Origin: Paramicrobacterium chengjingii
Lineage (GTDB): Bacteria > Actinomycetota > Actinomycetes > Actinomycetales > Microbacteriaceae
Length of the DNA: 64,000 nt
Assembly (NCBI RefSeq): GCF_011751765.2
Contig: NZ_CP061169.1
Span: 310,001 to 374,000 of the forward strand
Direction of reading: 5' to 3'
Numbering within the stretch: the stretch's first letter is position 1; each line of letters opens with the position of its first letter. The notes under the pieces are model-generated. The model searched no databases. It was not told where the DNA came from and was given only the letters and a program-made list of their open reading frames with translations. Shown here one piece after another: positions 1 through 17,330 of the stretch. Made by a program: the position numbers and the translations under genes.

Positions 1-1677
1 CGTGCGGCTGCCGTCGTGACGACGAGCGGTTCTGCCGTCGCTCATCTGCATCCGGCTGTACTCGAGGCGCATCACTCCGGGGTGCCACTGCTCGTGCTCA
101 CGGCCGACCGGCCCACAGAGCTGCAGGGAATCCGCAGCAATCAGACGACTGTGCAACCGGGAATCTTCGGCGGTGCTGTGAGGTTTGAGCGCACCGTCGC
201 CGCCCCGACTGGTAACACCAGCGAGACGGATCGCGCCGCGACTCTTGCGGCTCAAGCGTTGCGGGCTGCGAACGGCCGTGGCATCGCCGGGCCGGGTCCC
301 GTGCATCTGAACATCGCCTTCCGTGAGCCGCTGTCGTCGGCGGTGACGGTGCCGCCAGCCGCCAACTCGTCGGGTTCTGCCTCCCCGTCACCCTCCGCGA
401 CCCCCTCGGTCGCTGCCTCCCCGTTACCCCCGGGGACACTCGCCAAGAGTGGCGACGTTTTGTCCCCAAACCTCGCCCTTTTTGGCGGCGGTTCGGTTGC
501 AGACGGAGCGGCTGACCGGGGTGGCGGCGCGGGTGAAGGCGACATTGCGGCACAGAGCACAGACGACACGGATGCCGTGGCGCAGCGACCGTATGTCAGC
601 ACCCGATTCGAGCGACCGAGCGCGGTGCTCGACCCAGGGCCGCGCACCGTCGTGGTCGCTGGGCACGCCTCGGGCGCTGTGGCCGAAGAGCTCGCTCATG
701 CCGGCTCATGGCCGCTCATCGCCGAGGTGACGAGCGGTGCACGTTTCGGGCGCAACCTGGTTGTGCCGTACCGCGAGCTGCTGAGCGACCCGCAGTTTGG
801 CGGTCGCATCGAGCGTGTCGTCGTGTTCGGGCATCCAACGCTCAGCCGCGAAGTTCCGGCGCTACTGCAACGCGCCGAGGTCGAAGTGGTTGTCGTCGCA
901 CCAACCGGCATCGAGGCGTACAACCCGGGGCGCCGAGCCCGCATCGTCGCCACAGCATCCGTTGCCGATGGCTCCGCCGATCGGCACTGGCTCGGTACGT
1001 GGGTCGTTGCCTCGCGCGCCCTCGTCGATGCGGCCGACCGTGACGCTGCCCCGTCGCTCGACGACGGCCACTCCCACGATCCGGCTGCGCGTGCTCGCTT
1101 CGCCCGAGCAGAGTTCGCCGCCGTGCGCGCGCCTATCGACCGGCGGATGCTGGTGGAGGAGCTCTGGCGCTCGACGTGGCCGCACGACCGCCTCGTGCTC
1201 GCAGCATCCCGCTTGATTCGCGTTGCCGACGCGTTTGTCGCCGGAAAGAAGATTCCTGTGCACGCGAATCGCGGCCTCGCGGGCATCGACGGCACCATTG
1301 CCACAGCCCACGGCATCGCGAGTGCGCAGCAGCGCGAGGGGATGCCCGGGGTCACCCGGGTGCTCGTGGGAGATCTCGCTCTGCTGCACGACGCCGGCTC
1401 GCTGCTTGGCGGGCACGACGAGCTGTGGCCGCGCCTGCAGGTTGTGGTGGGCAACGACGGCGGCGGAACGATCTTCGACGGACTCGAAGTGGCGCAGTCA
1501 TCGCAGCGCGACCTCTTTGATCGTGTGCAGTACACGCCGCACAACGTTGACCTGGCTGCGCTGTCGACGGCCTACGGCTGGCAGCACGTGCTCGCGACGA
1601 ATCGTGCCGAGCTCGACAAAGCGCTCACAACCCCGCGCGAGTCGCCCGTGATCATCGAGGTGCTGCTCGAGCGCTGA
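1..1677 (+). CDS. menD: MenD, 2-succinyl-5-enolpyruvyl-6-hydroxy-3-cyclohexene-1-carboxylate synthase (5' partial)
   Basis: ThDP-dependent enzyme of menaquinone synthesis that joins 2-oxoglutarate to isochorismate. The frame is open to base 1, so the first part of the protein (roughly 70 residues by family comparison) lies outside the window. Visible are the conserved block around HPAVLEAHH, PLLVLTADRP and NQTT of the N-terminal domain, and near the C-terminus the ThDP/metal motif, GDLALLHD followed about 27 residues later by GNDGGGTIF. Between the first domain (ends VHLNIAFREPL) and the central domain (starts GPRTVVVAG) lies a Ser/Pro/Gly/Ala-rich stretch at about 352-594, longer than I expect for this linker, containing a perfect DNA hairpin. 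It converges on menF with 20 bp between the stops. Family assignment is secure; the role of the linker is unknown. Confidence 0.95.
   Translation, partial: RAAAVVTTSGSAVAHLHPAVLEAHHSGVPLLVLTADRPTELQGIRSNQTTVQPGIFGGAVRFERTVAAPTGNTSETDRAATLAAQALRAANGRGIAGPGPVHLNIAFREPLSSAVTVPPAANSSGSASPSPSATPSVAASPLPPGTLAKSGDVLSPNLALFGGGSVADGAADRGGGAGEGDIAAQSTDDTDAVAQRPYVSTRFERPSAVLDPGPRTVVVAGHASGAVAEELAHAGSWPLIAEVTSGARFGRNLVVPYRELLSDPQFGGRIERVVVFGHPTLSREVPALLQRAEVEVVVVAPTGIEAYNPGRRARIVATASVADGSADRHWLGTWVVASRALVDAADRDAAPSLDDGHSHDPAARARFARAEFAAVRAPIDRRMLVEELWRSTWPHDRLVLAASRLIRVADAFVAGKKIPVHANRGLAGIDGTIATAHGIASAQQREGMPGVTRVLVGDLALLHDAGSLLGGHDELWPRLQVVVGNDGGGTIFDGLEVAQSSQRDLFDRVQYTPHNVDLAALSTAYGWQHVLATNRAELDKALTTPRESPVIIEVLLER
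432..467. repeat. palindromic element inside the menD coding sequence
   Basis: Nested inverted repeat: outer arms GGGGACA (432-438) and TGTCCCC (461-467), inner arms TCGCCA (440-445) and TGGCGA (50-55 of the same line, 450-455) around AGAG. A second small hairpin, CGCC/GGCG around a T-rich loop, follows at 474-487. It lies in the low-complexity linker of MenD and is translated in frame. It looks like an inserted palindromic repeat unit, but no second copy was seen in this window. Confidence 0.6.
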
Positions 1678-1697
1678 CGCGCGCCCGTGCCGACTCG

Positions 1698-2972
1698 TCA
1701 GCCTTCGAGAGCGTCGATCACCGGACGGAATTTGATGCGCGTTTCCATGAGCTCGTTCTCTGGCACTGATTCGCCAACGACGCCGCAGCCCGCGTACGCG
1801 GTGATGGCGCCGTCGTCGAGCTGTGCGCACCGCAGAGCGATCGCCCACTCTCCGTCACCGTCGGCGCCGACCCAGCCAACGGGCCCGGCATAGCGTCCTC
1901 GGTCAAACGGTTCGAGGTCGTCGATCATCGCGATGGCGTCGGGCGTCGGTGCGCCGGCGACTGCCGCGGTCGGGTGCAGCGCCGCGATCAAGTCAAGAGA
2001 CGACGCACCATCGCTCAGTACGCCCTCAATATCGGTGGCGAGATGCCACAGGTTCGGCAGCTTGAGGGTGAATGGCACTTCGCTCGCGGCGAGATGGGAG
2101 GTGTGCATCTCGAGGGAGCGCACGACGCTCTGCACCGCGAACTCGTGCTCGTCGTTGTCTTTCTGCGACGTTGCAAGTGCCACGCTTGCGTGTTCGTCGG
2201 CTTCTGGGCCGTCGCCTCGTGCCGTCGTGCCCGCGAGAACCCGTGCGGTCACGGCGCCGTCGGTCACGCTCACAAGCGTCTCTGGGCTCGACCCGATGAG
2301 CCCGTCGACGGCGTAAGTCCAGCAGTCGGGGTAGCCCTGTGCTAAGTCGGTGACGAAACGTCGCACATCGCTGTCGGCCGGTACCGAGCCGACGAGGTCC
2401 CGCGCGAGCACGACCTTCTCGAGCTCGCCTGCGCGAATGCGACGCACTCCCTCAGCGACGTGCAGCTTGTATGAGTCAGCAGACTCCTGACCCTCCAGAA
2501 AATCAACACCGAAAGGCTCGCCGATGGGCGTCGTCTCTGCTGCAGCAGCTTCGGAGGCTTCAAGCATGCCGCCCCGTCCGGTATCGAGTTCGTCACCCTC
2601 GAAGCGAATGTGCGTGACCCAGTGGCGCCCGCTGCGGCGACCGACGACGGTCCGCGGAACGATCAGCACGCTTGTCGTCGTCGACAGCGACGAGAACGCG
2701 AATGCGCCGAATGCAATCAGGCCGGTGCCGGGAACGCCCACGCGATCAGAGACACGGGCGGATGCTGCCAGGCTCCGCCAGGCGGCGGCGGCATCGGTCA
2801 GACGTGTCTCGCCGGTGAACTCGAGGCGCAGGGCCTCGCCGATTCCGACAATGCCTGTGCCTTTGCGCAACCAGACGAGGGGTTCGGATTCGGAGGTATG
2901 AGGGATGAGGAGGGACACGTCGCCAACGGGGGTGGTGTCGACGACAAGCCTCGGTGTGTCGGGGTTGGTCAC
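1698..2972 (-). CDS. menF: MenF, isochorismate synthase
   Basis: Chorismate-binding enzyme, 424 aa, which isomerises chorismate to isochorismate as the entry step of menaquinone synthesis. The C-terminal half carries family landmarks: ELEKVVLARDL, SSPETLVSV, HPTAAVAGAPTPDA, ERGRY-type FDRGRYAGPVGW, and the terminal NELMETRIKFRPV. It faces menD, which uses its product. The GTG start at 2972 is preceded 6 nt upstream by a TATTCT box, so translation probably begins at the mRNA 5' end. Salicylate or other isochorismate-utilising enzymes share this fold, but the menD neighbour argues for the menaquinone role. Confidence 0.92.
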   Translation of the reverse strand: MTNPDTPRLVVDTTPVGDVSLLIPHTSESEPLVWLRKGTGIVGIGEALRLEFTGETRLTDAAAAWRSLAASARVSDRVGVPGTGLIAFGAFAFSSLSTTTSVLIVPRTVVGRRSGRHWVTHIRFEGDELDTGRGGMLEASEAAAAETTPIGEPFGVDFLEGQESADSYKLHVAEGVRRIRAGELEKVVLARDLVGSVPADSDVRRFVTDLAQGYPDCWTYAVDGLIGSSPETLVSVTDGAVTARVLAGTTARGDGPEADEHASVALATSQKDNDEHEFAVQSVVRSLEMHTSHLAASEVPFTLKLPNLWHLATDIEGVLSDGASSLDLIAALHPTAAVAGAPTPDAIAMIDDLEPFDRGRYAGPVGWVGADGDGEWAIALRCAQLDDGAITAYAGCGVVGESVPENELMETRIKFRPVIDALEG

Positions 2973-2978
2973 GCTTCA

Positions 2979-2984
2979 AGAATA
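2979..2984 (-). promoter_or_regulatory. -10 box for leaderless menF
   Basis: TATTCT on the minus strand, 6 nt before the GTG start at 2972, with no Shine-Dalgarno sequence. This is the TAnnnT plus 6-7 nt arrangement seen before many genes in this window. Confidence 0.5.
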
Positions 2985-3008
2985 CGCCGCGCTACCTGGA
3001 CGATTCGT

Positions 3009-3809
3009 TCAGCGATCAGTGTCGTCGTCGACGGGAGTAGAGGGTACGACGACGACCTCGACACCTGTCGCTTGGATCGACGCCAGGACGTCTTCGGGAG
3101 CGGAGTCATCTGTCACAAGCGTCCACGGCAGTGGCAGGCGAGCCCACCCGTGAACTGGGCTTTGACCGATTTTCTCGCCGTGTGCGAGAACATAGACGTT
3201 TCGAGCACGTCGGCAGACGAGCTCCTTGAATCTGAGCTGCTGCAGGTCGGCCTCGCTGATCTCGCCGTCAGGGCTGACGCCATCGGTTCCCAGAAATGCT
3301 GTGTCGAACGTCAGCCGCTCTACGGCAGCTTCAGCCAGTGGCCCGACGAAACCTTGGCTGAGAGGTCGATATTGTCCGCCAAGGCAGTACAGCTTTCCCG
3401 AGGGAAGGCCGGAGAGCGCGGTGATCACAGAGAGGTTCACTGTAGCTATCGACAAGTCTTCGATGTTTTTCAGCCGAGATGCCAGCGTGGCGACGGAAGA
3501 GCCGAGGTCTAGTAGAAGCGTGTCTCCGGGCAGAACCCGTTTGCGCGCCCACTCGGCAATGAGCACCTTCTGCTCGTGCGCCTCGCTCTGCCGTTCGCTG
3601 AGCGATGGCTCGGCATGGCCGACGAGGGCGATGGCGCCGCCGTAGGTGCGGGTGATCCGGCCCTCGCTCGTCAGCCGCGCAAGGTCCCGACGGATCGTCG
3701 ACGACGTGACGTTGAAGTAGACGGCGAGCTCGTCGACATTCGTTGGCCCGCTTGAGATCGCCAACTGAACGATCTTGTCGCGGCGTTCGACTGTCGACGC
3801 ATGGGTCAT
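3009..3809 (-). CDS. DeoR/GlpR-family transcriptional regulator
   Basis: 266 aa. An N-terminal DeoR winged helix (about residues 8-60, including TSSTIRRDLARL and the TYGGA turn) is followed by a DeoR C-terminal sugar-phosphate sensor domain (LLLDLGSS, LSVITAL, FLGTDGVS, LAHGEKIG). Its ATG overlaps the stop of the upstream kinase-dehydrogenase gene by ATGA, so the two are co-transcribed and translationally coupled. DeoR proteins usually sense a phosphorylated sugar intermediate of the pathway they control. The likely targets are the two divergent arms of this block, through the palindromes at 6099-6139. The effector is not deducible. Confidence 0.9.
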   Translation of the reverse strand: MTHASTVERRDKIVQLAISSGPTNVDELAVYFNVTSSTIRRDLARLTSEGRITRTYGGAIALVGHAEPSLSERQSEAHEQKVLIAEWARKRVLPGDTLLLDLGSSVATLASRLKNIEDLSIATVNLSVITALSGLPSGKLYCLGGQYRPLSQGFVGPLAEAAVERLTFDTAFLGTDGVSPDGEISEADLQQLRFKELVCRRARNVYVLAHGEKIGQSPVHGWARLPLPWTLVTDDSAPEDVLASIQATGVEVVVVPSTPVDDDTDR

Positions 3810-6007
3810 GCCTGCTCCCGGTTCGCTGCGAGTTCTATTGCCTGTCTCATGGCTTCGACCATGCTACGTGGATCGGCCTTGCCCGTGCCTGCAATGTCGA
3901 ATGCTGTGCCGTGATCCACAGACGTGCGAATCACGGGCAACCCGACAGTGATGTTCACGCCGGCCTCGATGCCCAGTACTTTGATGGGACCGTGCCCTTG
4001 GTCGTGGTACTGCGCGACGACGAGATCGTAGTCACCGCGTCCGGCGAGAAAGAACAGTGTGTCCGCGGGCAGAGGGCCGGTCACATCGATGCCCTGGGTG
4101 CGCGCTGCCTCGACGCCCGGTGCGATCTTCTCCGCTTCTTCTCCGTATCCGAAGAGCCCGCCTTCTCCAGCGTGAGGGTTGATCGACGCCACGCCGATAC
4201 GTGGATGCGGGTTGCCCGCTGCAACGAGTGCGTCATGACCGCGGCGGATCGTTCGCTCGACGAGCCCCGGCTCGATCTTCTCAACGGCGTCGATCAGACC
4301 GAGGTGAGTTGTGACGTGAATGACTTTCAACTTCGGCGTTGAGAGCATCATCGAGACCTCGTCGGTTCCCGTCAGCTTGGCGAGCATCTCCGTGTGCCCC
4401 GGGTAGATGTGGCCGCCGAGATGGAGTGCTTCTTTGTTCAGCGGCGCCGTGCAGATGGCGTCAATGCGGAGTTGCTGCGCGAACCGGCACGCTCGTGCAA
4501 TGTAGCGATAAGCAGCATCTCCGGCGACAGCAGACAGTGCACCCCATGCAAGGTCGCCTGGAATGAGATTCTCATCGATGACATTCAGCGTCCCGGGTTC
4601 GCAGATGGCGTCTTCAGGGGCGTCGATGATGTTCATCTTCGGCGATGTGCCGAGAAGTCGTGCAGCCTGCCGCAGCCGATTCGCATCGCCGATGATTATG
4701 GGCGTGCACGCGTTGATTATCTCCGCCTCCAGGAGGGCGGAAACAACGATCTCCGGGCCGACGCCAGCGGCGTCTCCCATTGTGACTGCAATGCGCGGTC
4801 TTCTTGTCATTGAATGATCCCTCGTGTGAGCGCGCTGAGGCGCGATTGGTGTGGTCAGATGCTCGATTGCATGAACAAGGCTGTCTCGTGTGCCGAAACT
4901 TCCCGGTCGCGTGACGATTCGTTTGCGCGAACGAGCGGTGGTCTCGATGAGTCCGGGTTCGATCGTCGCGGCGTAGGTGAGCGTGGTGATACCCAGCTCG
5001 TCGAGGAGGTGCCGGGCGGTTTCGCCGCCGGTCAGAATGAGATTGCGTTGTTCAGCGAGCCCTCTCAGAGCGTGAGCCAGATCGCTCGCAAGCTGTGAGC
5101 CGGCTGCGGGTCTGGTCGTCTTCGCCAGCGAGACGAGGACGACGTTGTCTCCAGAGAAACGTGTTGAATCCAGCGCGTCGAGTTGGTGCGGGTCGAGCTC
5201 GACCACCCGAACCCCTCGGCTTCTCACCTCGGCAACCTGTTCCGTTGCGGATGGCGCGGTGGTCCCCACCACGACGAGCACGGGAGAGATGGATGCCGGG
5301 CCGGTCGGCGCGACCGGCTGCAGCGGGGTCGACACTCCTGCAGAGTGCCGACGGAGCGCTTCGGCCAGCGCCCTGCTTCCGGCAAGGATCGCGTGCGCCG
5401 GTGCTGTCGAGACAATTGCGTCGAGGTCCGAATCGGTCCGCGCATCACAGATCACGATTCCTCTGCGCATGGCATGGAACTCTCGCAGACCACCGGCGCG
5501 GATTTCATCCATGGACAGCTCGACAGCAGCATCTCGAGCGAACAGCTCTGAGATTCGCCGGGGAGGCGCAGAAAGCTCATTCGCCCACATTTGTGTTTCA
5601 GACAGTGGCTTGCGTGCAATGCGCAGAATCCCGTCTTCCACCGTGCGATCCGACTGGGGGAGAGCTGGCGCCAGAATGACCATGGACTGCTCACCGAGAG
5701 CCGTGAGCTCACACCCTGTATTTCCGCGCAACAGGCTGTCGACCTTCTTGAAGATCGTCACGAAGTTCGGCAGACCGCTGGTGATTCGCGCGACAGTCGT
5801 GGCCGCGTGTTCCGGCTTGATGTCGCGGGATCCGGTGTCGACGACAAGCACGGGACTTCCAGGGAGCCAGAGGTCATCGATGTCGTCACGGGTTGGCGAG
5901 TGCAATACGATCCGTGCGCCATTCACCTGATCGAAGGCAAGAGCAGAAGCGACCTCGGCGGCTCCCGTCAAGTCGTCGGCAATCGCAAGAATCGGCGATA
6001 CAGCCAT
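3806..6007 (-). CDS. fused four-carbon acid sugar kinase (DUF1537) and PdxA2-type dehydrogenase
   Basis: 733 aa from the ATG at 6007, which has an AAAGGGGG ribosome site; a longer open frame to 6055 lacks one. Residues about 1-395 are a DUF1537 kinase: ADDLTGAAE near the N-terminus, FKKVDSLLRGN, TGGETA and RPGSFG. Residues about 400-733 are a PdxA-family NAD-dependent dehydrogenase: TMGDAAGVGPE, GHTEML, INPHAGEGG, QYHDQGHGPIK and the SVDHGTAFDIAGTG end. In characterised D-threonate pathways DtnK phosphorylates the acid at O4 and PdxA2 oxidises and decarboxylates it to dihydroxyacetone phosphate, normally as separate proteins. Here they share one frame, with an in-frame ATG at 4810 behind its own ribosome site. 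The substrate could be D-threonate, erythronate or a relative; B6 synthesis is unlikely in this context. Confidence 0.88.
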   Translation of the reverse strand: MAVSPILAIADDLTGAAEVASALAFDQVNGARIVLHSPTRDDIDDLWLPGSPVLVVDTGSRDIKPEHAATTVARITSGLPNFVTIFKKVDSLLRGNTGCELTALGEQSMVILAPALPQSDRTVEDGILRIARKPLSETQMWANELSAPPRRISELFARDAAVELSMDEIRAGGLREFHAMRRGIVICDARTDSDLDAIVSTAPAHAILAGSRALAEALRRHSAGVSTPLQPVAPTGPASISPVLVVVGTTAPSATEQVAEVRSRGVRVVELDPHQLDALDSTRFSGDNVVLVSLAKTTRPAAGSQLASDLAHALRGLAEQRNLILTGGETARHLLDELGITTLTYAATIEPGLIETTARSRKRIVTRPGSFGTRDSLVHAIEHLTTPIAPQRAHTRDHSMTRRPRIAVTMGDAAGVGPEIVVSALLEAEIINACTPIIIGDANRLRQAARLLGTSPKMNIIDAPEDAICEPGTLNVIDENLIPGDLAWGALSAVAGDAAYRYIARACRFAQQLRIDAICTAPLNKEALHLGGHIYPGHTEMLAKLTGTDEVSMMLSTPKLKVIHVTTHLGLIDAVEKIEPGLVERTIRRGHDALVAAGNPHPRIGVASINPHAGEGGLFGYGEEAEKIAPGVEAARTQGIDVTGPLPADTLFFLAGRGDYDLVVAQYHDQGHGPIKVLGIEAGVNITVGLPVIRTSVDHGTAFDIAGTGKADPRSMVEAMRQAIELAANREQA
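4808..4823 (-). promoter_or_regulatory. internal ribosome-binding site and start for the PdxA half
   Basis: Minus strand: GAGGG (4819-4823), 8 nt, then an in-frame ATG (4810) at the exact point where a free-standing PdxA would begin (MTRRPRIAVTMGD). It may let the ribosome make a separate dehydrogenase besides the fusion. Confidence 0.5.
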
Positions 6008-6053
6008 CACACCCCCTTTGATATTTCCTCGTCGATGCTCATCAAAACACGGC

Positions 6054-6059
6054 ATCGTA
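6054..6059 (-). promoter_or_regulatory. candidate -10 box for the kinase-dehydrogenase/DeoR operon
   Basis: TACGAT on the minus strand, about 46 nt before the preferred start at 6007. That distance leaves a short 5' leader carrying the AAAGGGGG ribosome site. The -35 region is not convincing. Confidence 0.3.
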
Positions 6060-6098
6060 GTTTATTGCGCATTTCACGCTAAAAGACTTGCGCGAAAT

Positions 6099-6139
6099 AT
6101 GCAAGCATGATTGCATTGCTAATCATCACGAACGTGATG
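6099..6139. promoter_or_regulatory. two palindromic operators in the divergent control region
   Basis: Perfect inverted repeat ATGCAA-N6-TTGCAT at 6099-6116 and a second perfect palindrome CATCACG-AA-CGTGATG at 6124-6139. They sit in the 182-bp gap between the divergent kinase-dehydrogenase and transporter operons, so a regulator here could control both arms. The DeoR protein encoded at 3009-3809 is the obvious candidate. Assignment of protein to site is inference. Confidence 0.5.
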
Positions 6140-6189
6140 CTTTTTCACCTGGTCGCTCTAAAAGCGTCTGACGATCGAGGAGGTCAAGG

Positions 6190-7809
6190 ATGACCGCGAA
6201 ATCTCAAGAAGTAGCTGCTTCACTCACTCCGGCTTCAACAGCGATGTTCTCACGGAGAGGACTACTACGTTTCGGCCTTGTCGCCGGCGCGGGCATCGCA
6301 TTCGCCCCCAGCCTCTCAGCGTGTGCGGGGCCGGGTGGCGGCGGCGCAGCGAGTGCGGCGTCTGGCACGCTCACCCTCGGGCTCAACCGTTCGCTCGTGA
6401 GCATCGACAACAAAATGAACCAGTTTGATGCGGCAGTGACCGTGCAGCGCGCGGTCCGCCAGGCTCTCACACGGGTCAGCGGCGATCTCACGATCAAGAA
6501 TGTTCTCGCTGAATCATTTGAAGCGGTATCGGACACCCAATGGAAGGTCGTCTTGCGGGACGATGCAGTCTATTCGGACGGCACGCCTGTCGTCGCAAAG
6601 GACGTGACAACGGCTCTCGACATGTACAAGCAGGTCGAGGGCGGCTTCCTGCAACCGCAGTTCTCAGAATGGCCCGTGGTCACGGAGGTGAGCGACAAGG
6701 AGCTCACGCTCGATACGCAGAAGCCAATTCCGACTCTCGACTTCCTGATGTCAAACGTCTTGATCACGCCAGCGGATGCCAATGAGCCCGCTGAACTTCA
6801 TGATGGCGTTGGGTCGGGACCGTACCTTGTGGAATCGAGCGAGAGCGGTTCTGGATCGTATGAGTTTGCGATCAACGAAGAATATTGGGGAGAAGCGCCC
6901 AAGATTGCGAAGGTGAACATTCGATTCATTTCGGAAGAGTCAAGTCGTGTTTCCGCCATTCGTGCCGGTGAGGTCGACGTCATCGACTCGATCACTCCAG
7001 AATCAGCAGAGCAGTTGAAGTCTGTTGACGGAATCGAGATCGATTCGGTGACGGGCACTCGTTTCAATCACCTCTTCTTTAACTTCCGTAAACCGAAAGA
7101 TCATCCCATTGCAAACCCCGAGGTGCGACGCGCCCTCAGTTACGCGGTGGACGGAAAGACGATCATCGATTCGATCTTCAGCGGGAACGCGGAGCAGGCT
7201 AACGGAGTGGTGCCCTTCACTCTGAACGGCTTCTCGGAGGTCGGCGAGTTCGCGTACGACCCGGACAAGGCGACGTCAGAGCTGAAGCGTCTCGGGGTGA
7301 AAGACCTTGCGCTGAACCTGATCTGGGAAGAAGGAGAGTACCCCGCTGACACGTTGGTGATGCAAGCTCTCGTAGAAATGTTCAGCGCTGTCGGAGTGAC
7401 GCTTTCGCTTAAATCGTTCGAGGCAGGCGGCGACATCGGCAAATGGCGTCGCGGTGAAGGAGGTGACTGGGACATTCTCGGTAACGGCTATGGCAATCAG
7501 ACAGGGCTCGCGCTGACGACAATGGAGGGAATGTACGCAGGAACCGCCGAGAAGGAGAAGACGCACGACTCGTATCACGGCTTCGTGTTCCCCGAGGTTG
7601 CCGATCTCATCCATCAGGCCACGTCGACGGGAGACGAGAGGGCGCGAAATGAGCTTCTCGCACAGGCCCAGCAGAAGACGTGGGATCTGACCCCGTCATT
7701 GTGGGCATTCGTGCCGAAGGTCTTGCTGGCACGTCGCACACGCGTGCAGAACCTCGAGCTCTCGCCCATCAACTCCTATGACCTCTCCGCGGTCAGCCTC
7801 AAGGACTAG
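6190..7809 (+). CDS. ABC transporter substrate-binding lipoprotein (SBP family 5, Dpp/Opp type)
   Basis: 539 aa, family 5 extracellular solute-binding protein. The N-terminus has a twin-arginine-like SRRGLLRF at residues 21-28, a hydrophobic stretch and the lipobox LSAC with Cys45, so it is probably exported folded and anchored as a lipoprotein. Family features include NVLAESFEAVSDTQW, GSGPYLVESSESG and RRALSYAVDG. The start has a strong GAGGAGGTCAAGG leader. It heads a five-gene importer operon, 9 nt before the first permease. Family 5 proteins bind peptides but also oligosaccharides, nickel and sugar-acid conjugates. The neighbouring kinase suggests a polyhydroxy acid or a conjugate of one. 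Confidence 0.9.
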   Translation: MTAKSQEVAASLTPASTAMFSRRGLLRFGLVAGAGIAFAPSLSACAGPGGGGAASAASGTLTLGLNRSLVSIDNKMNQFDAAVTVQRAVRQALTRVSGDLTIKNVLAESFEAVSDTQWKVVLRDDAVYSDGTPVVAKDVTTALDMYKQVEGGFLQPQFSEWPVVTEVSDKELTLDTQKPIPTLDFLMSNVLITPADANEPAELHDGVGSGPYLVESSESGSGSYEFAINEEYWGEAPKIAKVNIRFISEESSRVSAIRAGEVDVIDSITPESAEQLKSVDGIEIDSVTGTRFNHLFFNFRKPKDHPIANPEVRRALSYAVDGKTIIDSIFSGNAEQANGVVPFTLNGFSEVGEFAYDPDKATSELKRLGVKDLALNLIWEEGEYPADTLVMQALVEMFSAVGVTLSLKSFEAGGDIGKWRRGEGGDWDILGNGYGNQTGLALTTMEGMYAGTAEKEKTHDSYHGFVFPEVADLIHQATSTGDERARNELLAQAQQKTWDLTPSLWAFVPKVLLARRTRVQNLELSPINSYDLSAVSLKD

Positions 7810-7818
7810 TTACGTACG

Positions 7819-8751
7819 ATGCTTCGGTACCTGATCTCGCGCCTCGGGCAGAGCCTGCTCACGGTTTTTCTCACAATCTCCGCGGTTTTCGTACTCGTTC
7901 GCATGGCACCGGGCGACCCGGCATACTCGCTTGCCGGTCCGCTCGCCAGCACGGCCGAACTGGACCGTGTGCGCGAGAGCATGGGGCTCAACGAACCGCT
8001 CGTCACCCAGTACGTGATCTTTCTCAAAGACCTTGTGCAGGGAAACATCGGAATGTCGTACTCCTTCCGCGCTCCCGCCCTTGAAGTGGTGTTCGACCGC
8101 CTTCCGAACACTATTACGCTCGCCGCCGCTGCGATTCTGCTCACAGCTGTAATCGCGATTCCGCTCGGGGTGTGGATGGCGAAGAGGGCAGACACCAAGA
8201 GAGAGCTGACGGCGAACATTGTCACTATCGTCGGGCAGTCAATGCCCGACTTCTGGATCGGCGTGATGCTCATCACATTCTTCGCCGTGGCCATCCCGAT
8301 CTTTCCTGTGGCCGGGTTCGGCTCCTGGGCGGGAATCGTTTTGCCTGCGGCGACGATTGCCACGCTGCAAGTGGCATTGATCTCACGAATGGTGCGGAGA
8401 GAGATGGTGCAGAATCTCCAAGCTCCGTACTTTACGATCGCGCGTTCCCGAGGGGTGACGGGGCCGGCTCTCACCTGGGGATACGGATTCCGCAACTCTG
8501 CCGTTCCTGTCGTAACGGCGCTAGGCACACGATTCGCGAGCATGCTCAACGGCGTCGTCGTCGTGGAGGTCGTCTTCGGCTGGCCCGGAATTGGCTCCCT
8601 CGTGGTGCGAGCACTTGAAACTCGTGACTATCCACTGATCCAAGCGACAGTTGTCGTAACGGCAGTGCTGACGGTTGTCGTGCAACTGCTGATCGACCTC
8701 ACATATCCGCTACTCGATTCCCGAGTGAAGTTAGGAAAGGTGCAGGCATGA
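7819..8751 (+). CDS. ABC transporter permease, DppB type
   Basis: 310 aa inner-membrane permease. It opens with the family signature MLRYLISRLGQSLLTVF and VRMAPGDPA, has about six membrane segments, and near the C-terminus has the cytoplasmic coupling region (ARSRGVTGPAL) followed by VVEVVFGWPGIGSL. Its stop overlaps the next permease start as ATGA. It forms the translocation channel with the DppC-type subunit. Confidence 0.92.
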   Translation: MLRYLISRLGQSLLTVFLTISAVFVLVRMAPGDPAYSLAGPLASTAELDRVRESMGLNEPLVTQYVIFLKDLVQGNIGMSYSFRAPALEVVFDRLPNTITLAAAAILLTAVIAIPLGVWMAKRADTKRELTANIVTIVGQSMPDFWIGVMLITFFAVAIPIFPVAGFGSWAGIVLPAATIATLQVALISRMVRREMVQNLQAPYFTIARSRGVTGPALTWGYGFRNSAVPVVTALGTRFASMLNGVVVVEVVFGWPGIGSLVVRALETRDYPLIQATVVVTAVLTVVVQLLIDLTYPLLDSRVKLGKVQA

Positions 8752-9641
8752 CGAGCGTCACGACCAAAGGCACGAGCGCTGTCACCTCCAAACTCCTGCG
8801 AAAAGCAGGCTTTGCGCGCAAGGCCCGTGCGAGCAGGGTCAAGATCTGGACAGGCGCGGCCCTGACACTCGTTGTCGTGCTGCCCATCGTCTTCGTGCGA
8901 TCTCTGCCGATTCCCAGCGCCAGCGAACAGGGCCTCGCCGAGAGGATGCTGCCTCCGCTGACGGACGGGCACCTCTTTGGCACAGACCAGCTCGGGCGTG
9001 ACCTGCTCGCACGAGTGATGTACGGAGGGCAGGTTTCGCTGCTCATTGGGGTGCTCGCTGTCGTCATTTCGGGAACCATCGGCATTATTCTGGGTTCGCT
9101 CGCCGGGTACTACGGTGGAAAGGTCGACGGGATCATCTCACGACTCATCGAAGCCCAGCTTTCGCTGCCACTTCTCATGATGCTACTTCTTGTCGTCGCG
9201 CTCTTCGGATCGAGCATCCCGGTCATTACCTTCGTGATCGCGATAGCAAACTGGCCGGAGCCGGCACGGCTCACGCGATCCCTCGTTATGGTCGAGCGGG
9301 AGAAGCCATACGTAGAGGCGGCTCGAGTGCTCGGCGTCAAGCGACTCGGAGTGCTCGTGAAGCACGTTCTTCCGAATGTGATCGCTCAGGCAATCGTGGT
9401 TGTTCTCCTGCTGCTCGCCCAGGCCGTGCTTCTCGAAAGTGCTCTGAGCTTTCTCGGTGCTGGCCCGCAGCGCCCGTTTCCTACGTGGGGCAGAATCATC
9501 TCAGATGGACAAGATGTGATCACCAGCGCGTGGTGGCTTGTCACGCTTCCCGGTGTTGTCATCGCCTCCCTGGTCGTTGGTGTCAACCTTCTCGGTGACG
9601 GACTCAGAGACTTCTCTCGGCGAAAGAAGGCGTCACAATGA
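8748..9641 (+). CDS. ABC transporter permease, DppC type
   Basis: 297 aa. After a basic N-terminal tail and first membrane helix comes the family block GHLFGTDQLGRDLLARVMYGG, followed by five more helices; the coupling EAA-like loop is near EAARVLGVKRLG. It carries SALSFLGAG close to the end, as DppC proteins do. Starts and stops overlap both neighbours by ATGA, indicating tight translational coupling and fixed stoichiometry with the partner permease and ATPase. Confidence 0.92.
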   Translation: MTSVTTKGTSAVTSKLLRKAGFARKARASRVKIWTGAALTLVVVLPIVFVRSLPIPSASEQGLAERMLPPLTDGHLFGTDQLGRDLLARVMYGGQVSLLIGVLAVVISGTIGIILGSLAGYYGGKVDGIISRLIEAQLSLPLLMMLLLVVALFGSSIPVITFVIAIANWPEPARLTRSLVMVEREKPYVEAARVLGVKRLGVLVKHVLPNVIAQAIVVVLLLLAQAVLLESALSFLGAGPQRPFPTWGRIISDGQDVITSAWWLVTLPGVVIASLVVGVNLLGDGLRDFSRRKKASQ

Positions 9642-10447
9642 GTGTTCTTCGTGTCGAAGATCTTCAGATTGAACTGATGACCGACGCCGGGGTGATCCGC
9701 GCAGTGGACCGTGTGTCTTTCACCCTCGAGAAGGGGGAAACGGTGACGATCATCGGCGAGTCCGGCTCAGGAAAATCGACCACGGCCATGGGGATTCTCG
9801 GCCTGCTTCCCGCGGATCTCGCCGTGACAACAGGGATCGTCGAGATTCAGGGAATCGATGTGCTGGGCAAACCGAGGCAGCTTGAGAAAATGCGCGGTCG
9901 TCAGGTTGCGCTCATTCCGCAGGATCCGATGACTGCCCTGAGCCCGACCCACACAATCGGCAAACAGCTCGGCGGTGCCGTGCACCGCGGCTCGACTGTT
10001 CGGCTCAGCACCGCGCAGACAACGCAGAGGAGCATCGAGCTTCTCAATCACGTGAGGATCCCTGATCCCCGTGAGCAGCTCGATAAATACCCTCATCAGC
10101 TATCGGGGGGAATGCTTCAACGCGTGCTCATCGCGTCGGCGCTCGCGGCTGATCCGGTGCTCATCGTCGCTGACGAGCCAACGAGCGCTCTTGATGTGAC
10201 GGTGCAGGCAGGCATCCTGGATCTGCTTCTCACACTCCAAGAAGAATCGCAGTTGGCAATGCTTCTGATTACTCATGATCTTGGAGTCGCGCGCGTGGTC
10301 TCCGACCGCATCAAGGTGATGCGAAACGGCAGATTCGTCGACCGTGGGCCGGCTGATGAACTGGTCTCCCACCCGACAGTCGAGTACACGCGTCAACTCC
10401 TTGATGCGGTTCCTCAACTGGGTCCGTGGAACGGTGGTGCGCAATGA
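9638..10447 (+). CDS. ABC transporter ATP-binding protein, DppD type
   Basis: 269 aa nucleotide-binding subunit. Walker A is GESGSGKST, the Q-loop region is ALIPQDPMTALSPTH, the signature is LSGGMLQR and Walker B is LIVADEPTSALD. It is the first of the paired ATPases usual in Dpp/Opp importers. It is shorter than many DppD proteins and lacks a clear C-terminal Cys cluster for an Fe-S site. ATGA overlaps tie it to the genes on both sides. Confidence 0.92.
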   Translation: MSVLRVEDLQIELMTDAGVIRAVDRVSFTLEKGETVTIIGESGSGKSTTAMGILGLLPADLAVTTGIVEIQGIDVLGKPRQLEKMRGRQVALIPQDPMTALSPTHTIGKQLGGAVHRGSTVRLSTAQTTQRSIELLNHVRIPDPREQLDKYPHQLSGGMLQRVLIASALAADPVLIVADEPTSALDVTVQAGILDLLLTLQEESQLAMLLITHDLGVARVVSDRIKVMRNGRFVDRGPADELVSHPTVEYTRQLLDAVPQLGPWNGGAQ

Positions 10448-11310
10448 GCGAAGCGGCACTTCTCGACGTGAAAAGCCTGATCGTTGAATACCCCACGCGA
10501 TCAGGTCCATTCAGAGCCGTCGATAACGTCAGCTTTTCTGTGAAGCGGGGCAAGACTCTCGGGATTGTTGGTGAGTCAGGATGCGGCAAGTCGACGATCG
10601 CGCGCTCGATTGTGCGTCTGTTGCGACCGACGTCGGGGCAGATCGCACTCAACGGCGTCGATCTCGTGCCGATGTCTGAGCGACAGTTTCGGCCTCTGCG
10701 TTCGCGGATCCAGATGGTATTCCAAGATCCGTACGGATCGCTCAACCCGCGAATGACGGCGCAAGATCTCATTGCAGAGCCAATTGGCATGCGTGTGCGC
10801 GAGCTTTCCCGCGAACAACGACGCGTCAAGGCCCGTGAGTATCTTGAACGCGTCGGACTGCCAAGTACCGCTGCCGAACGGCGTGCTCACGAATTCTCCG
10901 GTGGGCAACGACAGCGCATCGGGATAGCACGGGCGCTTGCCTGCGAACCCGATCTCATTGTGCTCGATGAGGCGACGAGTGCGCTTGATGTTTCTGTGCA
11001 GGCTCAGATTCTTCGGCTCCTGAAAGATCTTCAAGACGAGACCCACAGCACGTTCATCGTCATCTCGCACAATCTCGGAGTCGTACGAGAGATCAGCGAA
11101 TCGGTTGTCGTGATGTCAAAGGGCCGAATCGTGGAACACGGCGACACGCAACGGGTGCTTGAGTCGCCGGTCGACCCGTACACGCGCACTCTGCGGGCTG
11201 CTGCTCTTGACCCGACGACCATGGTGGGCATCAAACCGCGTGAGGTGCTCAGCATGTTCCGGCAAGTGAGCACACCGACCGATGTCGTCCGCATGGCGAC
11301 GACCGAATAG
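10444..11310 (+). CDS. ABC transporter ATP-binding protein, DppF type
   Basis: 288 aa second nucleotide-binding subunit. Walker A is GESGCGKST, then MVFQDPYGSLNPRMT, signature FSGGQRQRIGIARAL and Walker B LIVLDEATSALDVSVQ, followed by a family C-terminal segment (PYTRTLRAAA). The chosen start is the ATG at 10444 overlapping the preceding stop; an in-frame GTG at 10426 would lie inside that gene. It completes the importer. Confidence 0.92.
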   Translation: MSEAALLDVKSLIVEYPTRSGPFRAVDNVSFSVKRGKTLGIVGESGCGKSTIARSIVRLLRPTSGQIALNGVDLVPMSERQFRPLRSRIQMVFQDPYGSLNPRMTAQDLIAEPIGMRVRELSREQRRVKAREYLERVGLPSTAAERRAHEFSGGQRQRIGIARALACEPDLIVLDEATSALDVSVQAQILRLLKDLQDETHSTFIVISHNLGVVREISESVVVMSKGRIVEHGDTQRVLESPVDPYTRTLRAAALDPTTMVGIKPREVLSMFRQVSTPTDVVRMATTE

Positions 11311-11323
11311 AGGAGAACACCCG

Positions 11324-12283
11324 ATGCAGCAAGACATCGTCACGGGTTCCGTGGCTCTGGGCACGATGACGTTCGGTGACACGGTCGATGAGAGTGTGGC
11401 GTCTCGTATGGTCGGCACAGCCCTCGATCGAGGTGCCACGATGATCGACACAGCAAACGGCTATGCGGGTGGAGAAAGCGAAAGGATGCTGTCGCGCATT
11501 CTGCCTCACGATCGAAGCAGCTTCCGCATCGCGACGAAGGCTGGAATGCCAACGGCAGATGCAGCAGGAAGACCACCGCTCTCGCGTTCTGCACTGGTTG
11601 ACAGTGTAAATAACAGCCTTAGACGGCTGAATCTTGACTACGTGGATGTGCTCTACCTGCATCAGCCCGACCGTGAGACACCACTCGATGAGACCGTGAC
11701 CGCCATAGCTGACCTGCACACGGCCGGCAAGATACGGGCGATCGGCGTGTCGAATTTCTCTGCATGGCAGGTAGCGGACGTTATCGCAACGGCCGATGCT
11801 CTTGGTGCGCCGGCCCCGGTCGTCGGTCAGCAGCTCTACAATTTGGTTGCGCGCAACGTCGAGCGAGAGTACATGGAGTTCGCTCGTACGCGTGGTCTGT
11901 TGACGATGGTCTACAACCCGTTAGCCGGGGGACTGCTCACAGGTAAGCACGCGTTGACCCAGAACCCAAGCAGTGGGCGCTTTGCGACATCGGGGCTCTC
12001 TGCCATGTATCGCAAGAGGTACTGGACACCAGAGCTCTTTGACGCGGTAGCACGGCTGCACGATGTTGCTCGAGTCGCAGAGATCTCGCTCGTCGAGGCG
12101 TCGTTCAGGTGGCTCTTGTCGCGACAAGCGGTGGACGCAGTCCTTGTCGGGGGGTCAAGTCTTGAGCAGCTTCAGCAGAACTTCGACTATCTCGACAAGG
12201 GGCCGCTTGACGCGCAGATTGTCGATGAACTCGACGAGCAGACGGCTCCCCTCTTCGGAGCAATGCCCCCATATAACCGGTGA
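11324..12283 (+). CDS. aldo/keto reductase
   Basis: 319 aa (beta/alpha)8 NADPH-dependent reductase. Family elements: DTANGYAGGESERML with the catalytic Asp and Tyr, IATKAG with the Lys, YVDVLYLHQPD with the His, IGVSNFSAWQ, and YNPLAGGLLTGK for cofactor binding. The start at 11324 follows an AGGAGAAC ribosome site 13 nt after the transporter operon, so it is probably in the same transcript. It may reduce an aldehyde released by the following aldolase, or oxidise the imported substrate. The substrate is unknown. Confidence 0.85.
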   Translation: MQQDIVTGSVALGTMTFGDTVDESVASRMVGTALDRGATMIDTANGYAGGESERMLSRILPHDRSSFRIATKAGMPTADAAGRPPLSRSALVDSVNNSLRRLNLDYVDVLYLHQPDRETPLDETVTAIADLHTAGKIRAIGVSNFSAWQVADVIATADALGAPAPVVGQQLYNLVARNVEREYMEFARTRGLLTMVYNPLAGGLLTGKHALTQNPSSGRFATSGLSAMYRKRYWTPELFDAVARLHDVARVAEISLVEASFRWLLSRQAVDAVLVGGSSLEQLQQNFDYLDKGPLDAQIVDELDEQTAPLFGAMPPYNR

Positions 12284-12315
12284 CGAATCAATAACAGACG
12301 TAAGGGAGAGCACGA

Positions 12316-13089
12316 ATGAGCGCGGCACACAATTTTGCAGCGAGGCTTCGGTCGAAGGAACGTCTTATCGGCTATTGGTCGATGATGGACGCTCACATCG
12401 TCGTTGAGCGCCTCGCTCGCGTCGGCTACGACTACATCTGCATCGATGGACAGCATGGGCTTCTCGACTACAAGGGTTGGCTCAACGCGCTCTTGGCAAT
12501 TGACGCGGGTGCAGCGCTGGGAAACACGCCGACTGTGGGCATGGTGCGAGTGCCCGCAAACGATCCTGCGTGGATCGGGCAGGCGCTTGATGCGGGCGCT
12601 GTGGGAGTTATCGTTCCTCTGATCAATACCGAGGCGGACGCGGCGCGAGCGTCTGACGCTGCCCATTACCCGCCTATGGGTACGCGGTCCTACGGGCCTA
12701 TGCGCGCCCAGCTGCGCATCTCGACTGATTTGGCCGAAGCCAACGAATCGGTCGTGTGCATTGCCATGATCGAGACGCCTCAGGGCTTGGAGAACGTCGC
12801 GGAGATTGCGGCGGTACCGGGCATCGATGCCCTGTACATCGGACCGAGCGATCTGCGGATCGCTGTTGGCGGTTCCAGTTCGACAGATGCTGCGGTCGAC
12901 TCGGTATTCTTGGAGGCGCTTCGCCGGGTCAGAGAAGCGGCTGGGGATCTGCCCGTCGGCATTCACACTCCGTCAGGGGAGGTCGCACACGCGAGGCTTG
13001 CGGAAGGCTTCGACTTCGTGACGATCGCGTCTGACCTCGTGCATCTTGAGCAAATCGCGACGTCGCATCTCGCTGTCGCGGGATCGTAG
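12316..13089 (+). CDS. HpcH/HpaI-family aldolase
   Basis: 257 aa class II, metal-dependent aldolase of the HpcH/HpaI family. Landmarks: the N-terminal YWSMMDAHIVVERLA, DYICIDGQHGLLDY (catalytic-site His), RVPANDPAWIGQALDAGA, MIETPQGLENV with the metal-binding Glu, and YIGPSDL with the metal-binding Asp. Relatives cleave 2-keto-3-deoxy sugar acids or 4-hydroxy-2-oxo acids to pyruvate plus an aldehyde. Last gene of the block, 32 nt after the reductase, with a GGGAGAG ribosome site. Its presence suggests that the imported compound is longer than four carbons or is processed by two branches. Confidence 0.85.
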   Translation: MSAAHNFAARLRSKERLIGYWSMMDAHIVVERLARVGYDYICIDGQHGLLDYKGWLNALLAIDAGAALGNTPTVGMVRVPANDPAWIGQALDAGAVGVIVPLINTEADAARASDAAHYPPMGTRSYGPMRAQLRISTDLAEANESVVCIAMIETPQGLENVAEIAAVPGIDALYIGPSDLRIAVGGSSSTDAAVDSVFLEALRRVREAAGDLPVGIHTPSGEVAHARLAEGFDFVTIASDLVHLEQIATSHLAVAGS

Positions 13090-13111
13090 TTCTCGCCCAG
13101 GTGCCGGCATC

Positions 13112-13117
13112 TAAACT
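13112..13117 (+). promoter_or_regulatory. -10 box for leaderless menG
   Basis: TAAACT, 6 nt before the ATG at 13124. No -35 match is obvious. Confidence 0.4.
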
Positions 13118-13123
13118 GAGGGC

Positions 13124-13834
13124 ATGAGCAAGAGCGCAGATCTCGAGAAGCAGCCCGAGCAGGTGTCGGCGATGTTCGATGAGGTCGCCGAACGCTACGA
13201 TCTCACGAACGACGTGCTTTCGGTCGGGAACGACCGCTTGTGGCGGCTCGCACTGCGCCGTGCCGTCGATCCACTTCCCGGCGATCGCGTGCTCGACCTC
13301 GCCGCAGGCACCGGCACGTCGAGCGCTGCACTCGCCGCGACGGGAGCGACCGTTGTCGCCGCCGATTTCTCTGCGGGAATGATCGCGGAGGGCCGTCGTC
13401 GATTCGGGCACCTGCCGAACATCGATTTCATCGAGGCTGACGCCACGAATCTCCCTTTCGCAGACGACGAATTCGATGCCGTCACCATCTCGTTCGGCCT
13501 GCGCAACGTCGTTGACCCGAAGAAGGCGCTCGTCGAGATGCTGAGGGTGACCAAGCCCGGTGGACGCCTTGTGGTGTGCGAGTTCTCCACGCCGCCGACC
13601 GCCCTCGTGCGCAGCGCCTACAACCTCTACATAGCCAAGATCATGCCGCTTATTGTGCGCGTCGTCAGCTCCAACTCCGAGGCATACACGTACCTCAACG
13701 AGTCGATCCGCGCCTGGCCCGATCAGAAGGGTCTCGCACTGTGGCTGCGTGAGGCCGGGTGGGGCAACGTCGAGCATCGCAACCTCACTGCAGGGATCGC
13801 GGCAATGCACCGCGCGTTCAAGCCCGGCGGGTAA
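13124..13834 (+). CDS. menG: MenG/UbiE, demethylmenaquinone methyltransferase
   Basis: 236 aa SAM-dependent methyltransferase for the last step of menaquinone synthesis. The family N-terminus [20 protein letters not shown] is followed by the SAM site [12 protein letters not shown], then FVDAD-like [27 protein letters not shown] and the C-terminal [12 protein letters not shown]. Neighbours are consistent: the polyprenyl synthase downstream makes the side chain and menD/menF lie upstream beyond the catabolic block. It has its own leaderless promoter, so it does not depend on the upstream operon. Confidence 0.95.
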
Positions 13835-13872
13835 CGGCATCCGGTATCGAAGCTGTGACGTCCGAGGACGGA

Positions 13873-13878
13873 TAGGGT
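13873..13878 (+). promoter_or_regulatory. -10 box for leaderless polyprenyl synthase gene
   Basis: TAGGGT, 6 nt before the GTG at 13885. This favours that GTG over the in-frame GTG two codons later. Confidence 0.45.
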
Positions 13879-13884
13879 AGTGGG

Positions 13885-14949
13885 GTGGATGTGAGCACGA
13901 CCCCTCGCGACACTCGACTGTCGCAGCAGCTGGGCCTAACCGAGCGCATGATGATGAGCCCGGCGATGCGTCGTGTCGTCAGCGAGATCGACGAAGGACT
14001 TGTTGAGATCGAACGTCAGCTGATCGGCGACCTCGAGTTCACGGATTCGGTGGCGGACGCGTCGGGACGCTACCTTCTCGAGGCGGGTGGCAAACGTGTG
14101 CGCCCCATGCTCATTCTTCTCGCTGCGCAGCTCGGCGACGGCAACACACAAGATGTCTACGATGCCGCGAAGGCGATCGAGATCACCCACCTCGCGTCGC
14201 TGTACCACGACGATGTCATGGACCACGCAGACCGCCGCCGTGGGGTGCCGAGCGCACACACCGTGTGGGGCAATTCGGTAGCGATTCTTACGGGAGACCT
14301 GCTGTTTGCTCGTGCGAGCCAGCTGATGGCGAACCTCGGCGAGAAGGCAATCAGGCTTCAGGCAGACACATTCGAGCGCCTCGTGCTCGGTCAGCTGCAC
14401 GAGACAGTCGGCCCCGAGAACGGTGAAGACGAAGAGAAGCACTACATTCAGGTTCTTGCCGACAAGACCGGTTCTCTCATCTCGACAGCTGCACGCGCCG
14501 GAGCACTTTTCGCCAATGCACCAGGAGACGTGCAAGGCCCGCTGCGCGAGTACGGCGAGAAGATCGGTGTCGCTTTTCAGCTCGTCGACGACGTCATCGA
14601 CCTTTCTCCGCAGCCCGAGCAGACGGGCAAAGTGCCGGGAACGGATCTGCGCCAGGGCGTCGCAACGCTGCCCATGATCTACCTCCGTCAAAGTGCACAG
14701 ACGGATGCCGCCGACGCGGACCTCGTGCGACGGATCGATGCCGAGTCGGGCGACCTCGACACCGCGACATCCGAATCATTCGCCAACGCCGTTGGGGAGC
14801 TTTATGCGCACCCGGTGACGGAGCGCACCCGTGCCGAGGCGAAGAAGTGGGCGGCCGAGGCGATCGCCGCTCTTGACGGTTTGCCTGATGGGCCCGTGAG
14901 AGAAGCCCTCAATCGATTTGGCCGCAAGCTGGCCGACAGAGACAAATAA
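13885..14949 (+). CDS. all-trans polyprenyl diphosphate synthase (menaquinone side chain)
   Basis: 354 aa IspA/IspB-type long-chain prenyltransferase. First Asp-rich motif DDVMD in LYHDDVMDHADRRRG, second DDVID in FQLVDDVIDLSP, with GGKRVRPMLI and GNSVAILTGDLLFA in between. It condenses isopentenyl diphosphate onto an allylic primer; placement after menG points to the menaquinone tail. The exact chain length cannot be read from sequence. GTG start. Confidence 0.92.
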   Translation: MDVSTTPRDTRLSQQLGLTERMMMSPAMRRVVSEIDEGLVEIERQLIGDLEFTDSVADASGRYLLEAGGKRVRPMLILLAAQLGDGNTQDVYDAAKAIEITHLASLYHDDVMDHADRRRGVPSAHTVWGNSVAILTGDLLFARASQLMANLGEKAIRLQADTFERLVLGQLHETVGPENGEDEEKHYIQVLADKTGSLISTAARAGALFANAPGDVQGPLREYGEKIGVAFQLVDDVIDLSPQPEQTGKVPGTDLRQGVATLPMIYLRQSAQTDAADADLVRRIDAESGDLDTATSESFANAVGELYAHPVTERTRAEAKKWAAEAIAALDGLPDGPVREALNRFGRKLADRDK

Positions 14950-14990
14950 GCGCCCGCGTCACCCGCAGCGTACCCAACCAAAGGAATCAT

Positions 14991-17184: not shown

Positions 17185-17330
17185 GGGTGCCCCTCAGCTT
17201 GTTGTGCCACGAATCGCAGTGGACGCTACTCCCGTGTGACGCTGATTGCGCCCCACGTTCGGGGGTCGCAGCGGGCGGTTAGTCCACGCTGTTCCGGCTG
17301 AATTGTTGGGAGACAGAAGGGTATACAGCG

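Follow-up and report, generated by a model that had tools for sequence, protein, structure and literature searches.

The 64,000-nucleotide stretch of Paramicrobacterium chengjingii DNA analysed here (the window; positions 310001–374000 of contig NZ_CP061169.1, from a 3.62 Mb single-contig genome) carries a block of genes that we read as a candidate cassette for the catabolism of a seven-carbon (C7) sugar acid. All the genes named in the original prediction were located where it had placed them, with open frames and strong Pfam matches, and its view of the block as one catabolic unit holds. On the minus strand lie a DeoR-family repressor gene (3009–3809; DeoRC 1.3e-34, HTH_DeoR 1.1e-13) and a 749-residue fusion of a DUF1537 kinase to a PdxA-type dehydrogenase/decarboxylase (Kin-PdxA; 3806–6055), with the kinase at about residues 22–393 (SBD_N 2.8e-33, NBD_C 8.3e-16) and PdxA at about residues 421–743 (1.3e-101). 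On the plus strand are a family-5 solute-binding protein (6190–7809; SBP_bac_5 3.9e-62), DppB- and DppC-type permeases (7819–8751 and 8748–9641; both by Pfam), DppD- and DppF-type ATPases (9638–10447 and 10426–11310; Pfam and curated family scores), an aldo/keto reductase (AKR; 11282–12283; Pfam) whose nearest solved structures are AKR7A aflatoxin aldehyde reductases, and an HpcH/HpaI class II pyruvate aldolase (HpcH; 12316–13089; Pfam 1.4e-30, 106.7 bits against a gathering score of 25). Read by eye, the N-terminus of the solute-binding protein has one stretch that resembles a twin-Arg motif and an LSAC sequence that resembles a lipobox.

The window holds both elements of a D-threonate pathway, a two-domain DUF1537 kinase and PdxA. 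The nearest NCBIfam model for the kinase is D-threonate kinase (104.5 bits, cut-off 450), ahead of 3-oxo-tetronate kinase (73.0), and the PdxA domain scores above the cut-off for PdxA in general (352.6 > 290.35) but reaches 342.8 against the 583 set for the curated D-threonate-4-phosphate dehydrogenase; by these matches the pair appears to work like the D-threonate pathway, without being filed as a member. The importer is a complete five-part DppABCDF set, and stays under the curated Dpp equivalog cut-offs (e.g., DppA 92.2 < 1005, DppB 174 < 590, DppC 199.6 < 483). Among PDB entries the aldolase matched a hydroxyketoacid aldolase best and GarL next; it scored 133.4 bits on the curated GarL equivalog, below the cut-off of 406.75. 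Two more DUF1537 kinases are encoded elsewhere in the genome, at contig positions 3277856 and 3367773.

The block splits a menaquinone cluster, with MenF (1698–2972) on one side and MenG (13124–13834) on the other, the genes being divergent. A congener, G199, presents the empty site: window positions 611–3016 and 13108–16325 align to 10348–12751 and 12755–15972 of its region L161, where the aligned flanks are only 3 bases apart, so that about 10.09 kb (3017–13107) is extra in the window. In G148 and G001, too, menF adjoins menG and the block is absent, and the congener Microbacterium sp. MPKO10 (G085; the contig that bears L046) carries the block in the corresponding place; it is missing from three of the four congeners compared. 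The ten-gene block of about 10.1 kb is a clean insertion between menF and menG. Its GC content is 59.8%, with 67.5% and 61.7% in the flanks, and no obvious repeat was seen by eye in the junction stretches; we favour a horizontally mobile catabolic cassette. Beyond the menaquinone genes, a 263-residue open frame (16448–17239) had no Pfam match at E 0.001.

The divergent intergenic region of the block contains a putative DeoR operator, TTGCGCGAAATATGCAA, a 17-bp imperfect palindrome at 6088–6104, and a second operator-like site at 6065–6081 with two mismatches to the consensus. That consensus, the 17-base imperfect palindrome TTGCGCGAAWYRYGCWA, was sought between the divergent genes at the 54 loci, the window included, where a gene finder could delimit this region: 25 have it exactly, 21 with one mismatch, 7 with two and 1 with three, so that 53 of the 54, the window among them, have a site within two mismatches. 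Its core, TGCGCGAA, occurs without mismatch in 47 of the 54 regions (shuffles: mean 1.47, maximum 5). Across the whole window there were 7 matches at three or fewer mismatches, no excess over chance (mean 4.39). As read from these sequences, the motif is a sign of conservation and not independent proof, since these regions are related to one another and themselves supplied the consensus. The DeoR gene adjoins Kin-PdxA in many relatives, and DeoR would repress from the shared operator.

A three-row HpcH profile found 124 relatives in named genomes, and the neighbourhoods of the best 80 (78 from Actinobacteria and 2 from Proteobacteria by record title, which makes L059 Rhodococcus sp. IEGM 1409 although a tree tool labels it a cyanobacterium) were scored by tblastn at fixed bit thresholds; because the sample was drawn by HpcH, the counts give the frequency of HpcH linkage and not the commonness of the system. 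The original prediction had staked itself on co-conservation, and PdxA and AKR do occur together at 61 of the 80 loci (PdxA in 61, AKR in 65), AKR being present at every locus with PdxA. Among the four AKR loci lacking PdxA over threshold, PdxA is cut by the end of the stretch in two (L074, L089), one is a 4.8 kb contig (L048) and one has none nearby (L063). None of the scored genes was found at 15 loci (seven Kribbella, two Saccharopolyspora, two Actinophytocola, Thermoactinospora, one Micrococcaceae metagenome-assembled genome and the two Proteobacteria); the HpcH copies of the first three genera have other neighbours, and in Kribbella (L047, L050, L054, L055, L058, L061, L114) these form another conserved neighbourhood, with a carboxyltransferase and an acyl-CoA dehydrogenase. 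Distance matrices for 62 loci, with shared species history not removed, correlate at r 0.945 for HpcH–AKR, 0.653 for HpcH–PdxA and 0.689 for PdxA–AKR (null maxima 0.312, 0.166 and 0.17). On the HpcH tree, copies with and without cluster linkage tend to group with their own kind (5 changes against a shuffled mean of 14.1), but the linked copies do not form one clade, and HpcH by itself is therefore not enough to define the system.

Within the window's own family, a match to at least part of the kinase–PdxA protein was found in 55 of 299 genomes. Fourteen family regions were read, three of them truncated where a contig stops; the whole gene set was seen only in L032 and L038, and several PdxA loci (L033–L037, L039, L041) lack the aldolase and AKR. 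The gene set is conserved in other genera beyond chance grouping: the block is a widespread, modular pathway and not a jumble. The kinase–PdxA fusion was considered as the novelty and rejected, since a simple gene finder showed the two fused in 38 of the 80 relatives; in L046 they are two genes separated by one in-frame stop.

In many relatives HpcH is followed by a BNR_2 gene (e.g., L106:10766–12013), found at 49 of the 80 loci, with an SDR gene at 47. A search of 72,556 plasmid records gave BNR_2 matches in 314, and 15 of these places, chosen as the best plus an even spread, were read (L131–L137, L139–L146); a further region, L138 from Streptomyces albus, was picked by HpcH. Proteobacterial genes were called from annotation and tblastn, the unannotated Klebsiella region by tblastn. 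In the 14 proteobacterial loci, those whose BNR_2 match has 43% identity or more, a DapA-family aldolase and an iron-containing alcohol dehydrogenase (iron-ADH) stand in for HpcH and AKR while PdxA is kept, all three occurring in 14/14; conversely, neither iron-ADH nor DapA exceeded the tblastn threshold at any of the 80 HpcH loci. The DUF1537 kinase lies inside the region in 12 of the 14 (not in two Pantoea; partial in Roseomonas). The Pantoea PdxA exceeds the curated D-threonate 4-phosphate dehydrogenase cut-off (666.3 > 583). The haloarchaeal match, L145 (27%), has no PdxA, iron-ADH, DapA aldolase or DUF1537 kinase in its region.

HpcH/HpaI enzymes are metal-dependent and DapA enzymes lysine-dependent aldolases, and both families include pyruvate aldol cleavage. 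GxKxS and LYxIP motifs, presumably bearing the Schiff-base Lys and the Tyr, are retained in all 13 aligned DapA proteins. Being unrelated in mechanism, the two aldolases have in common only the reaction, in which a 4-hydroxy-2-keto acid undergoes aldol cleavage to pyruvate, just as AKR and iron-ADH agree in aldehyde reduction. Except for L135, which stands alone, the DapA proteins fall into two main groups with 20–30% identity between them, and a split at about 30% identity also runs through the iron-ADH proteins; these splits suggest more than one recruitment.

An AlphaFold model of BNR_2 (14-row alignment) had a mean pLDDT of 84, and among the 50 Foldseek matches listed 48 were sialidases or sialidase-holding constructs, one was a pseudaminidase and one was titled a designed metalloprotein. 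By eye BNR_2 has no signal peptide, so it is probably cytosolic. The Pantoea and Klebsiella clusters also have a YhcH gene; the protein from Pantoea scores above the TIGR00022 cut-off and is similar to N-acetylneuraminate anomerase, with a score short of that model's cut-off (96 < 160). The sialidase fold and YhcH fit a cyclic ulosonic acid. We considered BNR_2 as a GH143 homologue and rejected this, because a weak match to 5mqr, 'Beta-L-arabinobiosidase' (E 0.047), which we take to be BT1020, the entry for a hydrolase of 3-deoxy-D-lyxo-hept-2-ulosaric acid (Dha), was not strengthened by a 21-row profile. 'Exo-alpha-sialidase' genes of rhizobia, Pantoea and Methylobacterium (L131–L137, L139–L144, L146) are tied to genes of four-carbon (C4) acid catabolism, and that annotation is probably misleading for these BNR_2 genes. 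In Azospirillum a fumarylacetoacetate-hydrolase-family gene between BNR_2 and SDR (L134:10236–11000) recalls diketo-acid hydrolysis routes, and might mark an alternative oxidative branch.

The importer is the replaceable part of the system. A complete Dpp set is present at 47 of the 80 HpcH loci, an MHS-type MFS transporter at 7 (6 of these without complete Dpp) and an Nramp-like transporter at 12; the 14 proteobacterial loci have a sodium:solute symporter in 7, a Dpp-type importer beside the cluster in 6, and neither in L137. An MHS-type MFS or, as we infer, an Nramp-like protein thus takes its place in Actinobacteria and a sodium:solute symporter in Proteobacteria, and such interchangeable small-acid transporters suggest that the substrate is a small free organic acid. 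In Streptomyces loci (L049, L053, L057, L060, L138 and others) HpcH is followed closely by a PGDH-like dehydrogenase and an Nramp-family transporter, with overlapping ends in several, an arrangement that would suit an Nramp relative turned carrier of organic acids.

The non-homologous replacement of aldolase and reductase points to the underlying chemistry: aldol cleavage, aldehyde reduction, phosphorylation of a C4 acid and a PdxA step to dihydroxyacetone phosphate (DHAP). The displacement pattern also suggests that these steps are joined in one line rather than serving two separate uses, and since the two assemblies agree, the order aldolase, reductase, kinase, PdxA is likely. PdxA enzymes convert 4-phospho-C4 acids to DHAP. 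A C4 acid formed by aldehyde reduction would come from 2,3-dihydroxy-4-oxobutanoate (tartrate semialdehyde), and this together with pyruvate (C4 + C3) would make the aldolase substrate 4,5,6-trihydroxy-2-oxoheptanedioate, a 3-deoxy-hept-2-ulosaric acid. The importer would take up this C7 2-keto-3-deoxy aldaric acid; HpcH/HpaI would cleave it to pyruvate and tartrate semialdehyde; AKR, from its presumed activity, would reduce the latter to threonate; the kinase domain would form 4-phosphothreonate; and the fused PdxA domain would oxidize C3 and decarboxylate to yield DHAP and CO2, the net products being pyruvate, DHAP and CO2. Consistent with the kinase step, DUF1537 kinases act on C4 acids, according to a review (PMC10971088). 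Human AKR7A2 is named succinic semialdehyde reductase in PMC10221418; as the AKR is nearest to AKR7A, this activity on the unhydroxylated analogue supports its role with tartrate semialdehyde. No dehydratase common to the clusters was seen (L052 and L136 alone have mandelate-racemase-type genes), and import may therefore deliver the ulosaric acid itself.

The natural 3-deoxy-hept-2-ulosaric acid known to us is Dha. Its constitution is exactly that of pyruvate plus the C4 aldehyde-acid, and by Fischer bookkeeping its D-lyxo form gives D-threonate, as do only two of the eight isomers, the other six giving other C4 acids; D-threonate is the substrate of the nearest characterised kinase/dehydrogenase pair. 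For these reasons we tentatively favour Dha, at somewhat under even odds, as the substrate. Dha is described as a seven-carbon sialic acid analogue (PMC6811678) and as a component of rhamnogalacturonan II (RG-II; PMC6353982). Soil and plant genera account for many of the carriers, but some plasmid records are clinical (Roseomonas, Klebsiella); soil and plant habitats would fit many plant compounds and not Dha alone.

Taken as a whole, a cassette for a C7 2-keto-3-deoxy aldaric acid, with Dha favoured, has in our estimate a probability of about 0.55, every reaction, their order and the regulation being inferred; the enzyme families and their displacement supply the pyruvate cleavage, aldehyde reduction and conversion of a C4 acid to DHAP that Dha catabolism would need. 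Several observations weigh against it. The window kinase and PdxA both fall short of the curated D-threonate cut-offs, some DUF1537 kinases use other acids (e.g., 3-oxo-isoapionate), and the Methylobacterium iron-ADH scores 233 bits on ErcA, 223 on sulfoacetaldehyde reductase and only 203, in fourth place, on 4-hydroxybutyrate dehydrogenase, all below cut-off. No firm role can be given to BNR_2 or SDR, neither of which lies beside the window block; BNR_2 was not found in the window's genome, in a search without a positive control, and its 21-row profile matched 5mqr at E 0.039, behind sialidases. A link to RG-II through co-occurrence with the apiosidase family was tried and was not significant (4 of 21 HpcH-positive genomes, linked or not, against 34 of 375; p 0.13), and that family had no match in the window's genome. 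Among 30 proteins scanned, cluster genes included, one pectate lyase (L060) was the only pectin-related neighbour, and it and BNR_2 itself were the only polysaccharide-degrading types; its gene (L060:3870–4982) adjoins the cluster of Streptomyces sp. NBC_01016.

The same enzyme order could instead serve another ulosaric acid, either a different C7 stereoisomer or a 3-hydroxylated 2-keto-heptarate that would yield hydroxypyruvate for the 2-hydroxyacid dehydrogenase of the Streptomyces loci to consume. This is unlikely, yet it has points that count against Dha: a hydroxyketoacid aldolase is the best PDB match of the aldolase, six of the eight isomers give C4 acids other than D-threonate, and a PGDH-like 2-hydroxyacid dehydrogenase, which would fit hydroxypyruvate, occurs at 12 of the 80 loci (11 Streptomyces, 1 Tamaricihabitans). 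That gene, however, is missing from the other 68 and from beside the window block, the parallel clusters use aldolases of the DapA family, for which pyruvate chemistry is expected, and the Pantoea PdxA scores as a curated D-threonate enzyme. The original prediction's C4-acid unit leading to DHAP, its second aldolase giving pyruvate and an aldehyde, and its 'longer sugar acid' are supported by family and displacement pattern, but its alternative of an amide- or peptide-like conjugate is not. Two modules for such a conjugate, one half entering Kin-PdxA and the other HpcH and AKR, would suit the Dpp-type importers, which often carry peptides or conjugates and are complete at 47 of the 80 loci, and the hydrolase-fold BNR_2 at 49; they are nonetheless improbable, given that small-acid transporters replace Dpp, that BNR_2 is absent from the surroundings of the cluster in the window, in L046 and in four Rhodococcus loci, and that aldolase and reductase are swapped together for non-homologous equivalents while PdxA stays.

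More improbable still is a plain threonate or erythronate pathway with the aldolase and AKR as accessories: a DUF1537 kinase and PdxA alone have been described for D-threonate, and Kin-PdxA does occur without the other two in the seven family loci named above, but AKR accompanies PdxA at 61 of 61 HpcH loci and an aldolase and alcohol dehydrogenase do so in 14/14 proteobacterial loci. We reject a vitamin B6 gene beside a peptide importer, for which only the generic PdxA score speaks, as PdxS is encoded in the genome (PF01680, E 2.7e-106) and its only PdxA match lies in a block that three of four congeners lack.

Returning to the C7 cassette, we regard it as possible, though rather doubtful, that an intracellular Dha pathway was assembled independently at least twice, in Actinobacteria and Proteobacteria, from unrelated aldolases and reductases, with D-threonate as intermediate and not as nutrient; in many carriers cytosolic BNR_2 would then be a new enzyme acting on Dha, whether as lactonase, mutarotase or hydrolase. 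If Dha is the substrate, the cassette would show how carbon is drawn from a plant cell-wall sugar that is among the least studied and where D-threonate may arise in nature, a set of 'exo-alpha-sialidase' annotations from plant-associated bacteria becomes tied to a pathway unrelated to sialic acid itself, and how bacteria consume Dha becomes directly testable with a handful of purified enzymes. As far as its text was accessible, the open-licence literature yielded no description of bacterial intracellular Dha catabolism and, as the original prediction had supposed, no described system with this gene combination.

Among known systems, the D-threonate pathway, said to have been reported by Zhang et al. 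in 2016, comprises the DtnK kinase and PdxA2. A passage of the review PMC10971088 names the kinase only. The block shares the DUF1537 kinase, the PdxA dehydrogenase and the DHAP end product, but has an aldolase and aldehyde reductase upstream in the route, so that threonate would be an intermediate, and other importers. In the GarL–GarR–GarK route a 2-keto-3-deoxy aldarate is cleaved to pyruvate and a semialdehyde acid, which is reduced and phosphorylated. The same reaction series is proposed here, and HpcH matches GarL as given above; the difference is one more carbon (a C4 rather than a C3 semialdehyde), other reductase and kinase families, and no dehydratase seen in the block. In the lower homoprotocatechuate route HpaI cleaves a C7 dicarboxylate to pyruvate and succinic semialdehyde, a C4 semialdehyde acid handled by an AKR7-like reductase family; the substrate of the block would be a trihydroxy analogue and the product kept as a sugar acid. 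Sialic acid catabolism uses NanA, NanQ/YhcH and a transporter. The proteobacterial version resembles it in its DapA-superfamily aldolase, sialidase-fold protein, frequent sodium:solute symporter and, in Pantoea and Klebsiella, YhcH, but has a C4-acid kinase and PdxA in place of N-acetylmannosamine genes, none of which is annotated beside it. Lastly, the GH143 Dha hydrolase of B. thetaiotaomicron has, according to PMC6811678, a five-bladed sialidase-like β-propeller. BNR_2 matches six-bladed sialidases and is not close to GH143 by sequence, yet it shares the sialidase-like β-propeller with this hydrolase, which would release the proposed substrate from RG-II.

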